DNA from: Chlorobiota bacterium
GTDB taxonomy: Bacteria > Bacteroidota > Ignavibacteria > OLB7
Direction of reading: 5' to 3'
Length of the DNA stretch: 64,000 nucleotides
NCBI GenBank assembly: GCA_028287785.1
Contig: JAQBOZ010000009.1
Span: 62,001-126,000, forward strand
This document shows positions 4,326 to 8,169 of the stretch, piece by piece; the first letter of the stretch is position 1; the number at the start of each line of letters is the position of its first letter. The translations under genes were made by a program, and so were the position numbers. The notes under the pieces were generated by a model that had not been told where the DNA came from, ran no database searches, and worked only from the letters and a program-made list of their open reading frames with translations.

Positions 4326-4700
4326 TCAGACACCGAAGCTGGAACCGCAGCCGCAGGTTTTTGCAGCCTGCGGGTTGTTGAAGACGAACCCGCGTCCGTT
4401 CAGGCCATCGGTGAAATCGAGCTGCGTCCCCATCAGGTAGAAGAGGCTCTTTCCGTCGATGAACATTCTGACGCCGTCCTGTTCCAGCAGCTTGTCCCCC
4501 TCGCGCTTCTCGGCGTCGAATCCGAGCGTGTAGCTCAGGCCGGAGCAGCCGCCCCCCTTCACGCCGACGCGAAGGCCGTAGGTCTCGGGAATGCTGTTCT
4601 GCTCCATGATCTTCCTGACCTCGGCCACGGCCTTTTCGGTGAGGACAATGGAGCTGTTCGACTGGGTTTCCGTCGGCTCGTTGATCTCTATATCCTGCAT
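4326..4700 (-). CDS. iscA: A-type Fe-S carrier IscA/ErpA
   Basis: A-type carriers accept clusters from IscU and pass them to apo-proteins. The 124-residue product has the three invariant Cys: C52 in GGGCSGLSY, and C116 and C118 in the KTCGCGSSF tail. ATG 4700 is chosen over the in-frame GTG at 4709 because a strong AAGGAG (4709-4714) sits 8 nt upstream of the ATG and overlaps the GTG. The first 18 residues are a non-conserved extension. The Pro/Glu/Thr start and the TCGCGSSF end would also fit ErpA; the isc context favours IscA. Confidence 0.92.
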   Translation of the reverse strand: MQDIEINEPTETQSNSSIVLTEKAVAEVRKIMEQNSIPETYGLRVGVKGGGCSGLSYTLGFDAEKREGDKLLEQDGVRMFIDGKSLFYLMGTQLDFTDGLNGRGFVFNNPQAAKTCGCGSSFGV

Positions 4701-4802
4701 GATATTCACTCCTTATAGGGCGTAACGGAATGGATTGCCGGCCCGCCGGTCAGGGCCATTCCGTTATGAATTTCTTGATAGCTGTTCAATCCGTCCGATT
4801 CC

Positions 4803-5213
4803 TCAGGCCACGGCCTCGGCCGGGTGTGCCTGCGCCTGCTTCTTCTTGTAGTCCTCGATCGCCGCCTTGATTGCGTCCTCGGCCAGCACCGAGCAGTGGA
4901 TCTTTACGGGCGGGAGGTTCAGGTCGGCAACGATCTGTGTGTTCTTGATCGCGGCGGCCTCTTCCACGTTCTTCCCCTTGATAAGCTCCGTGGCATAGCT
5001 CGATGATGCGATCGCCGAGCCACAGCCGAACGTCTTGAACTTCGCGTCCTCGATCACTCCGGTCTCCGGGTTGATCTTCAACTGAAGGCGCATTACGTCG
5101 CCGCACTCCGGCGCGCCGACCAGACCCGTGCCGACAGTGCTGTCGTTCGGGTCGAGTGTGCCCACGTTGCGCGGGTTGTTATAATGGTCGATGACCTTTT
5201 CTGAGTATGCCAT
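4803..5213 (-). CDS. iscU: Fe-S cluster scaffold IscU
   Basis: IscU is the scaffold on which IscS-derived sulfur and iron are built into [2Fe-2S]/[4Fe-4S] clusters. The 136-residue product has the ligands C37 and D39 (APECGDVM), C64 (TFGCGSA), H106 and C107 (KIHCSV). Residues 100-104 are LPPVK, the loop recognised by HscA, so the chaperone system encoded in the same operon should act on it. The start MAYSEKVIDHYNNPRNVG is canonical. AGAGGAG lies about 11 nt upstream. A Gln/Ala-rich tail of about 10 residues is slightly longer than usual. Confidence 0.97.
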   Translation of the reverse strand: MAYSEKVIDHYNNPRNVGTLDPNDSTVGTGLVGAPECGDVMRLQLKINPETGVIEDAKFKTFGCGSAIASSSYATELIKGKNVEEAAAIKNTQIVADLNLPPVKIHCSVLAEDAIKAAIEDYKKKQAQAHPAEAVA

Positions 5214-5712: not shown

Positions 5713-6234
5713 CTATCCTCCCTCGGCTTCGCGTTTGGCCTTTGCCGCGGCCATCCTGGCCTGCAACTCGGCGATCTTCGCGGCCTTCTCCGGATCGGTT
5801 CCGGGGGGGACGTGAAGCTTCGGAGCGGCGCCGGATGCCGCCGCGGCCGGTGTTGCGGCGGCAGGAGCAGCGGGAGCCGCCGGTGCCTTCGCTGCGGGGG
5901 CGGCCGGCGCCGGCTTCGGCTTCGGGGCCTCCTGCACCGGTTCCACGTAGAACTCGCCGGCGTAATATTCCGGCATGTTCAACTCGAATGTCTGGCGGTT
6001 GATCCGCTTTACAAGCCCTCGGTTCTCCCACGCATCGATCACTTCCTTCGTAACCTTCTCCATATCCGCGTACGATACCTTGGTCTGGCTTTCCTTCAAA
6101 TATCTCCAGAGCCCGTACTGAAAGTCCCGGAAGAAAATGTTCGACTTGTGATAGAACTCATACCGGTTCGACTTCATAAAGTCGAGAAACGGCTTCGGGT
6201 CCTTCTTGACCGTCCTGACATCCAGATGTTCCAT
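5713..6234 (-). CDS. Unrecognised isc-operon protein X1 with Ala/Pro/Lys-rich tail
   Basis: This 173-residue protein lies between iscS and iscU. ATG 6234 was chosen because AGGA lies 6 nt upstream and the longer frame adds an unconserved-looking leader. Residues 1-95 form a compact, aromatic and basic domain (FLDFMKSNRYEFYHK, FFRDFQYGLWRYLKE, VTKEVIDAWENRGLVKRI) that reads like three or four helices, perhaps a winged-helix-like fold. Residues 103-140 are an Ala/Pro/Lys linker. Residues 147-173 form a charged coiled-coil-like helix (AAKIAELQARMAAAKAKRE). There are no Cys. A role in cysteine desulfurase or scaffold handling is inference from gene order only. Confidence 0.78.
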   Translation of the reverse strand: MEHLDVRTVKKDPKPFLDFMKSNRYEFYHKSNIFFRDFQYGLWRYLKESQTKVSYADMEKVTKEVIDAWENRGLVKRINRQTFELNMPEYYAGEFYVEPVQEAPKPKPAPAAPAAKAPAAPAAPAAATPAAAASGAAPKLHVPPGTDPEKAAKIAELQARMAAAKAKREAEGG

Positions 6235-6380: not shown

Positions 6381-7610
6381 CTAGTGATGCGCCCACTCGA
6401 CGCTCTTCAGGTCGATTCCCAGCTTCGCCATTTCGTACAGCGGCGACATCTCGCGCAGCTTGTTGACCGCCTCGATCACCTGATTCAGCGTGTAGTCGAT
6501 CTCCTCCTCGGTCGTAAACCGGCCGATGCCGAAACGGATCGACGTATGAGCCAGATCCTCGCCGACGCCGAGCGCCTTCAGGATATAGCTTGGTTCGAGC
6601 GAGGCCGAAGTGCATGCGGAGCCGGAGGAAACCGCGATATCCCTGATCCCCATCATCATCGCCTCGCCTTCGACATAGGCGAAGGAGACGTTGAGATTTC
6701 CCGGAAGGCGCTGCTCGTTCTTCTCCAGCGGATCGGGGCCGTTGATGTAGAGCTCATCGAGCGATTCCTTCAGCTTCGTCCAGAGCTTGTCGCGCAGTGT
6801 GCGCGCATGGGCGATATCCTGCTCCATCTCCGCCATCGCAAGCTCGAGCGCCTTGCCGAAGCCGACGATGCCGGGCACGTTCAGCGTGCCGGAACGCATG
6901 CCGCGCTCGTGGCCGCCGCCATCCATCTGCGCGACCAGGCGCACGCGCGGCTTCCGCTTCCGCACGTAGAGCGCTCCGCAGCCCTTCGGGCCGTACATCT
7001 TGTGGCCGGTGAACGAGGCCAGATCCACATTCATCTCCTCCACGTTGAACGGCACCTTGCCGATCGTCTGCGTGGCGTCGGTGTGGAACAGGACGCCGTG
7101 CTCGCGGCAGATGGCGCCGATCGACTTGATATCCTGAAGCGTTCCGATCTCGTTGTTGCCGTGCATCACGGAGACCAGGATCGTCTTGTCGGTGATCGCC
7201 TCGCGAAGGCGGTCCAGCTCGACAAAGCCCTCCTTGTCCACCGGCAGGTAGGTCACACGGAACCCGTCGCGCTCCAGCGCCTTGCAGGTATCGATCACTG
7301 CCTTGTGCTCGGTGGTCACCGTGATGATGTGATCCCCCTTCGGGCGATACATATGGGCGACACCCTTGATGGCGAGATTGTCCGACTCGGTGGCCCCGGA
7401 CGTGAAGACGATCTCCTTCGGGTCCGCGCCGATCGCCCTGGCGATCGTTTCCCGTGCGCCCTCGACGGCCGCCTCCGCCTCCCAGCCGAACTCATGGTTG
7501 CGGCTTGCGGCGTTGCCGAAAATGTCGGTGAAGTAGGGGAGCATCGCCTCCAGGACCCGCGGGTCCATCGGCGTTGTCGCGTTGTTGTCGAGATAAATAG
7601 GGATCTTCAT
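6381..7610 (-). CDS. iscS: Cysteine desulfurase IscS
   Basis: IscS is a PLP enzyme that converts cysteine to alanine and forms a persulfide for Fe-S and thiolation pathways. The 409-residue product carries PLP-Lys K204 in [13 protein letters not shown]102 in TTEHKAV, and the persulfide Cys C333 in [13 protein letters not shown] on the long flexible loop of group I desulfurases. The C-terminus [21 protein letters not shown] is almost identical to the IscU-binding tail of classical IscS, so this is IscS rather than NifS or SufS. It lies 56 nt after iscR and 146 nt before X1. Confidence 0.97.
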
Positions 7611-7666: not shown

Positions 7667-8062
7667 CTAGATCATCTCCGCGAGCGTCATCTGCGTGAAG
7701 GTCGAGGTGATCCGTGCCTGAAGACGGCGGAGGGGGTCCTTGATGGTACAGATATCATGCAGCGCGCAGGTGCCATGCTCAATGCACTCCACAAGCGCCT
7801 GATCCCCTTCGATCGCCGTGATCACATCCTGAATCGAAATCGCCGCCGGCGCCCTGCCGATCGAATAGCCGCCCCGCATTCCCTCGGTTGCCAGCGCAAG
7901 GCCGGCCCTGGAAAGCTGCGAAAGGGTCTTGGCGCACAGTTCCGCCGGCAGGCAGTATTCCTCGGCGATCTCCCTGGCCGTCGTCGATTCTCCCTCCGGC
8001 AGGAGGGCCAGGTGCCGCAGCGCGATCAACCCGTATTCGATCTTTTTTGACAGCCGTAACAT
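7667..8062 (-). CDS. iscR: Rrf2-family Fe-S sensing regulator IscR
   Basis: IscR represses the isc operon when it holds a [2Fe-2S] cluster. The 131-residue product has an N-terminal winged helix ([21 protein letters not shown] recognition region, then GGYSIGR wing) and three Cys spaced as in IscR, C93, C99 and C105 ([17 protein letters not shown]). In E. coli the fourth ligand is a His three residues after the last Cys; here that position is Lys 108, while His 102 lies between the second and third Cys, so the ligand set may differ. The gene is first in the operon, and an IscR-type palindrome lies 46 nt upstream of its start, which fits autoregulation. Confidence 0.92.
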
Positions 8063-8107: not shown

Positions 8108-8136
8108 CCAACTCCGACCAAATTGGTCCGAGTTGG
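8108..8136. promoter_or_regulatory. IscR type-1-like operator upstream of iscR
   Basis: Arms 8108-8121 (CCAACTCCGACCAA) and 8123-8136 (TTGGTCCGAGTTGG) form a 14-bp inverted repeat around one base with a single mismatch. The core GAC-N7-GTC has the same spacing as the E. coli IscR type-1 consensus. It overlaps the predicted transcription start of iscR, so binding would block the promoter. Confidence 0.8.
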
Positions 8137-8138
8137 GA

Positions 8139-8169
8139 CAAACATAGCGAGTTGCGCTTCTTCGGGCAA
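8139..8169 (-). promoter_or_regulatory. Bacteroidota-type promoter of the isc operon
   Basis: On the minus strand TATGTTTG (8139-8146) is an exact match to the TAnnTTTG -7 element, with TTG (8167-8169) 20 bp upstream as a -33 element. The predicted start, near 8132, falls inside the palindrome at 8108-8136. The rest of 8147-8364, between iscR and coaE, shows G-runs but no further gene. Confidence 0.7.

Follow-up and report, generated by a model that had tools for sequence, protein, structure and literature searches.

What controls the assembly of iron–sulfur (Fe-S) clusters in the little-studied branches of the Bacteroidota? The question is raised by a palindrome that precedes a regulator gene and a series of isc genes in a Chlorobiota bacterium; in a preliminary description it was taken for the type-1 site of an Escherichia coli-like IscR, overlapping a promoter of the Bacteroidota type. 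Here, we analyze this palindrome in the window (the whole 64,000-nucleotide stretch of contig JAQBOZ010000009.1 presented above) and compare it with the corresponding regions of related genomes. We suggest that it is very probably an autoregulatory Fe-S operator through which the operon is closed by its own regulator.

The palindrome

The two arms of the palindrome (8108-8121 and 8123-8136; Table 1) are 14 nucleotides long, are separated by a single nucleotide and are complementary at 13 of 14 positions. Among the odd-centred 29-mers of the window it ranks first, and no other 29-mer there has at least 13 of 14 pairs; in 40 copies of the window generated by an order-1 Markov model there were no sites at this level and 18 with at least 12 of 14 pairs. 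The palindrome is thus far above chance and, as first described, is real. An open-spacer pattern derived from it, with up to three mismatches allowed, matches once in the bacterium's own genome, the control giving no match. On the minus strand it includes a GAC (8128-8126) and a GTC (8118-8116) that together form a GAC-N7-GTC core. The runner-up among the odd-centred 29-bp palindromes of the window, CTTTGCTGTACTTGGTAGGTACAGCAAAG at 508-536, has 12 of 14 pairs.

Table 1. Elements of the operator region and of the operon it precedes, with a set of loci that share an upstream motif
Feature	Position	Strand	Remarks
Operator palindrome	8108-8136		29 bp, 25-bp core arms 8110-8134; pairing, Markov control, class conservation
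-33-type TTG element	8167-8169	(-)	TTG-N20-TATGTTTG match, likewise in genus mate L002
-7 box TATGTTTG (TAnnTTTG)	8139-8146	(-)	10 nt before GAC, also in L002
Predicted +1	8134	(-)	placed by taking the -7 box as -12 to -5
Rrf2-family regulator (iscR/risR-like)	7667-8062	(-)	C93-X5-C99-X5-C105; PF02082 99.4 bits, TIGR00738 94.4 bits
iscS cysteine desulfurase	6381-7610	(-)	TIGR02006 659.6 bits, cut-off 643.2
Protein X, proline/alanine-rich tail	5713-6234	(-)	predicted start codon
iscU scaffold	4803-5213	(-)	TIGR01999 219.8 bits, cut-off 192.4
IscA/ErpA-type carrier	4326-4709	(-)	TIGR00049 119.6 bits, cut-off 58.8
GGAAC-N18/19-GTT loci (family f12)			L003, L010, L106-L110, L112-L114, L117, L120, L125, L127, L128, L145

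The promoter

Reading along the minus strand, one encounters TTG, 20 nucleotides, TATGTTTG, two nucleotides, the palindrome, 45 nucleotides and the ATG of the regulator gene. The consensus promoter of Bacteroides is TAnnTTTG with TTTG near -33 (PMC7366714), and in Flavobacterium psychrophilum the -7 box occupies positions -12 to -5 (PMC9723704). The window has both elements of such a sigma-A promoter, TAnnTTTG at -7 and TTG near -33; with the spacing of F. psychrophilum the predicted start falls at 8134, within two bases of the 8132 estimated earlier, and the operator would consequently cover about -2 to +27. The pattern TTG-N20-TAnnTTTG has 50 occurrences in the bacterium's own genome and 68 in that of a genus mate, compared with 12 and 16, respectively, when it is read backward, an excess which indicates that this type of promoter is probably used in both. 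The proposal of an operator that overlaps the start predicted for a promoter of the Bacteroidota type, ahead of an Rrf2 regulator and the isc genes, agrees with the sequence, and the arrangement is conserved in the genus mate.

The operon and its regulator

The genes are ordered iscR-iscS-X-iscU-iscA, and coaE is divergent. Protein X has no Pfam or NCBIfam match; a tblastn match to it adjoins iscR at 34 of 53 loci, a count that takes in the window, and H28, S30, N31, F33, R35, D36 and E58 are invariant in 15 aligned sequences (numbered along the first row of the alignment, from which the start Met is missing). The label "imelysin-like", considered for one downstream protein, was dropped as there was no Pfam match.

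The regulator, the sole Rrf2 match in its genome (95% complete), clearly belongs to the Rrf2 superfamily (cut-offs of 30 bits for PF02082 and 73.3 for TIGR00738) and falls below every equivalog cut-off tested, the nearest being TIGR02944 (83.5 vs 110.65 bits). Its three cysteines are invariant in all 19 aligned regulators (the window protein counted), and these 19 proteins match the Rrf2, TIGR02944, IscR, RirA, NsrR and CymR models with E <= 0.001. In a true orthologue of IscR, bound to an E. coli-type type-1 site, one would look for the ligands C92, C98, C104 and H107. The window protein has the three cysteines at the same spacing as in E. coli (PMC3899308), its gene is the first of the isc cluster and the GAC-N7-GTC spacing is also equal; however, it has no histidine ligand, all 19 regulators having either K or R at the position of H107, and the S40, E43 and Q44 of E. 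coli IscR are replaced by E41, A44 and K45 (a mapping with a one-residue offset, as given by matching the protein to chains of E. coli IscR). Its score with the IscR equivalog model TIGR02010 is 49.3 bits against a cut-off of 207.55. The palindrome itself fits the E. coli type-1 consensus, ATASYYGACTRWWWYAGTCRRSTAT (PMC3899308), at 16 of 25 positions, compared with 14 for the site of the genus mate and 18 for the class consensus string, and the IscR group, IS1, is described as confined to the Proteobacteria (PMC9973013). Of the identity with the E. coli type-1 site that was originally proposed, the common core stands; identity beyond this core is not supported, and orthology with IscR is very unlikely.

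That the NsrR, RirA and TIGR02944 models all outscore that of IscR might suggest instead that the regulator senses some other signal, for example NO or iron, and that its control of Fe-S assembly is indirect. The same models, nonetheless, all score under their cut-offs, the genome has a single Rrf2 gene, and the clear targets in relatives (see below) are isc and suf genes; we regard this alternative as unlikely.

Conservation in the genus and the class

In the genus mate (isolate SZAS-92, contig JAFDZV010000011.1; loci L002 and L032 are this same contig), the sequence TTG-N20-TATGTTTG-N10-GAC-N7-GTC precedes an iscR whose product is 78% identical to that of the window, even though the intergenic DNA to either side is in large part divergent. 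Among 111 iscR-type genes of the class, 84 have GAC-N7-GTC at most 120 nucleotides upstream of the start; in the same regions, the control spacings (0-6 and 8-14) give 0-3 occurrences and six alternative half-sites with the N7 spacer yield 0-2. These 111 regions are a non-random sample, composed of the best-scoring matches plus 58 picked one per genus among the matches listed, with the own genome included. The 84 include one locus (L170) whose core probably sits in coding sequence, and positions may err by a few bases in five regions with GTG or shifted starts. In the first set of loci the core was present in 22 of 38 (L002 and L032 being one contig); L031-L039 are outside the 111, being duplicates or beyond the class draw, and among these omitted loci L036 and L037 have the core and L038 and L039 are without it. 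The refutation named at the outset, a palindrome without conservation upstream of iscR in related genomes, was not borne out.

The 27 regions without the exact core near iscR are distributed among families f4 (4/4), f13 (7/7), f14 (9/9), f15 (2/2), f19 (1/1), f29 (1/1), f10 (1/10) and f17 (2/10), so that f4, f13, f14 and f15 (22 regions) are wholly without it; degenerate sites can be discerned by eye in some of these core-less loci (L006, L007, L011, L012 and L016). The genus-weighted profile of the 84 operators is A-W-A-T-A-G-GACT-N5-AGTC-G-T-A-T-W-T, in which GAC and GTC are fixed by the selection of the sites. Compared with the outer arms of the class (AAATA/TATTT), those of the window (AACTC/GAGTT) have changed on both sides.

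Further sites and the suf genes

Across 149 genomes, the strict class pattern RGACYNNNNNRGTCGTATWT is present in 34, with a total of 46 sites, whereas its backward control has 17. The bacterium's own genome is without it because its arms differ, and pattern scans revealed no further credible operator there. Two extra matches to a looser 23-bp pattern, for which the control gives two matches in the own genome and four in the genus mate, were rejected as operators since they lie inside long reading frames, the first of which is presumably nuoD. Of the targets first proposed for such a scan, suf is missing here: neither genome of the genus (G000 and G001) has the SufB/D core protein, in a search that was positive for 14 of 14 control genomes. 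As a consequence, the single isc site may set most of the Fe-S assembly in this genus.

Elsewhere in the class suf does come into play. At the 30 strict-pattern loci that were fetched, the next gene is iscR-like in eight, SufB in seven, a TonB-dependent receptor in one and a multihaem cytochrome in one; a further three sites (L075, L100 and L101) precede, by their coordinates, an iscR on the opposite strand, and 10 have no clear target. The seven sites heading SufB are all in family f14, with an iscR of the same orientation lying 6.5-6.7 kb further downstream; in this family the core is found before the suf operon (7 of the 30 fetched sites) and never next to iscR (0 of 9). In three of the seven suf loci TATATTTG, itself a TAnnTTTG box, forms the operator's right arm, so that the operator there would cover the promoter spacer.

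These observations bear on whether the palindrome could act mainly in the RNA, as a 5' hairpin that either stabilizes the isc transcript or regulates how it is translated. In the predicted leader it can fold into a hairpin whose 12 pairs are interrupted by a single mismatch and closed by a loop of 3 nt (-27.1 kcal/mol, z -2.2, equalled by 5 of 200 shuffles). The genus mate, however, retains GAC-N7-GTC with the inner arm bases unpaired, and in the three suf loci the right arm, being a -7 box, would belong to promoter DNA and not to leader RNA. We consider a primary role in the RNA very unlikely and prefer to view the palindrome as an operator.

A predicted terminator before the operator in sister families

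In the sister families the surroundings of the operator are different. Four or more T in a row, located 9-26 nucleotides before GAC, accompany 70 of the 84 operators, and 44 of the 84 have TTTG-N11-GAC; in both genomes of the window's genus this run is absent and the promoter box is in its place. At 51 of the 70 loci a stem-loop abuts the T-run (8.0 expected from shuffles), and its stems vary between families. Where long flanks were available, a crude rule based on the longest frame (it misses coaE at the window's own locus) gives a divergent upstream neighbor in 29 of 51 loci, at which the stem-loop does not, therefore, serve that neighbor as a terminator. Upstream of the T-run, TTG-N19-22-TAnnTTTG (with TA kept and at least three of TTTG) occurs at 25 of the 70 loci, against 2.6 expected and 2 on the opposite strand; it ends 44-91 nucleotides before GAC, and its distribution is f3 11/18, f12 7/17, f17 4/7, f18 2/9 and f5 1/4. 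The simplest reading of this layout would be a promoter, a short leader, an intrinsic terminator, the operator and the start codon. It could be argued that the TTTTTTTG run of the relatives may itself be a weak -7 box of iscR, but upstream promoters exist and TA is scarce at the start of the run. With the promoter before the leader terminator and the operator behind it in many loci of f3, f12, f17 and f18, the layout in which the operator covers the start region was observed in just the two genomes of the window's genus.

Such an order suggests, as a tentative and somewhat doubtful possibility, that in the sister families the Fe-S repressor affects elongation instead of initiation: transcripts would begin upstream and meet the terminator, and the repressor, bound at a fixed distance behind the T-run (TTTG-N11-GAC), would be a roadblock that enforces termination, the loss of its cluster leading to read-through into iscR. 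If this were true, the window's genus would represent a second state, without the terminator and with the operator merged into the promoter; a metal-cluster repressor coupled in this way to the termination of transcription would be out of the ordinary.

Family f12 has an additional element. Upstream of its leader, GGAAC-N18/19-GTT is present in 16 of 17 loci (Table 1), with controls over all 111 regions of 2 and 1 for the reversed motif and 1 and 0 for the opposite strand. We take it to resemble an ECF-sigma promoter, which would suggest that stress feeds into Fe-S assembly. As an RNA hairpin the element was rejected, since it has no consensus fold and its spacing, constant at 18-19 nt, is more in keeping with an ECF-type promoter. 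A comparison of 20 loci with Rfam gave three weak matches, all far under the gathering score. In three f3 loci (L126, L130 and L141) GTCG, half of the operator motif, lies before the -7 box of the upstream promoter (GTCGTATATTTG), and may be a second weak site overlapping that promoter.

Discussion

Taken together, the position of the operator, its conservation and the cysteines of the regulator make it likely, in our judgment, that this regulator represses iscR-iscS-X-iscU-iscA by cluster-dependent binding over the promoter start. A dimer of the cysteine-ligated Rrf2-family protein (8062-7667), most likely loaded with its cluster, would bind GAC-N7-GTC and cover the start of the Bacteroidota-type sigma-A promoter, so blocking the initiation of what is presumably a single transcript of the operon. 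When Fe-S clusters are in short supply, the regulator would lose its own cluster, the site would be freed and the operon would be switched on, in a negative feedback. The operator is new for this lineage, of a sort already described, and it offers a defined, testable element in the control of Fe-S assembly for a branch of the Bacteroidota that has received little attention. Among the open-access matches listed, which include two genome papers on Melioribacter and Thermonerobacter, none concerns the regulation of iscR in this class or the coupling of a repressor to a terminator at iscR.

Three known systems invite comparison. The TIGR02944 regulators of the SUF system (Xanthomonas type) provide the best-scoring equivalog model, under whose cut-off the window protein nonetheless remains. 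IscR of E. coli and Pseudomonas has its site before the iscR-isc genes, with the same core and the same cysteine spacing (PMC3899308), but differs in the residues discussed above, and the outer arms are ATA-N3-GAC in E. coli, AACTC-N1-GAC in the window and ATA-N1-GAC in the class profile. The third is RisR of Myxococcus xanthus, a member of the Rrf2 subgroup IS6, which takes in the Chlorobi (PMC9973013). The recurrence of the core across phyla, initially thought to be noteworthy in itself, loses its novelty here, since the report on RisR already places GAC-N7-GTC under a distant Rrf2 regulator (PMC9973013). RisR binds this palindrome over the -10 and start region of isc and has three cysteines (PMC9973013), and the core of the window likewise lies, by its position in the sequence, over the predicted start of the isc promoter. 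The suf site of RisR is in the -35 to -10 region, which the suf site of family f14 would match, and the base-contact residues of E. coli IscR are not conserved in RisR (PMC9973013), nor are they in the window protein. A derepression of 3- to 4-fold is reported for RisR. There are also differences: the cysteines of RisR are C92-X9-C102-X5-C108 and not C93-X5-C99-X5-C105, risR heads suf whereas the window regulator heads isc in a genus without SufB/D, and the RisR promoters have -35/-10 hexamers in place of TTG/TAnnTTTG (PMC9973013). Nevertheless, on the likeness of site and regulator, RisR of Myxococcus is a closer analogue than the E. coli IscR switch, and the operator of the window is thereby tied to a RisR-type logic instead of that of IscR.
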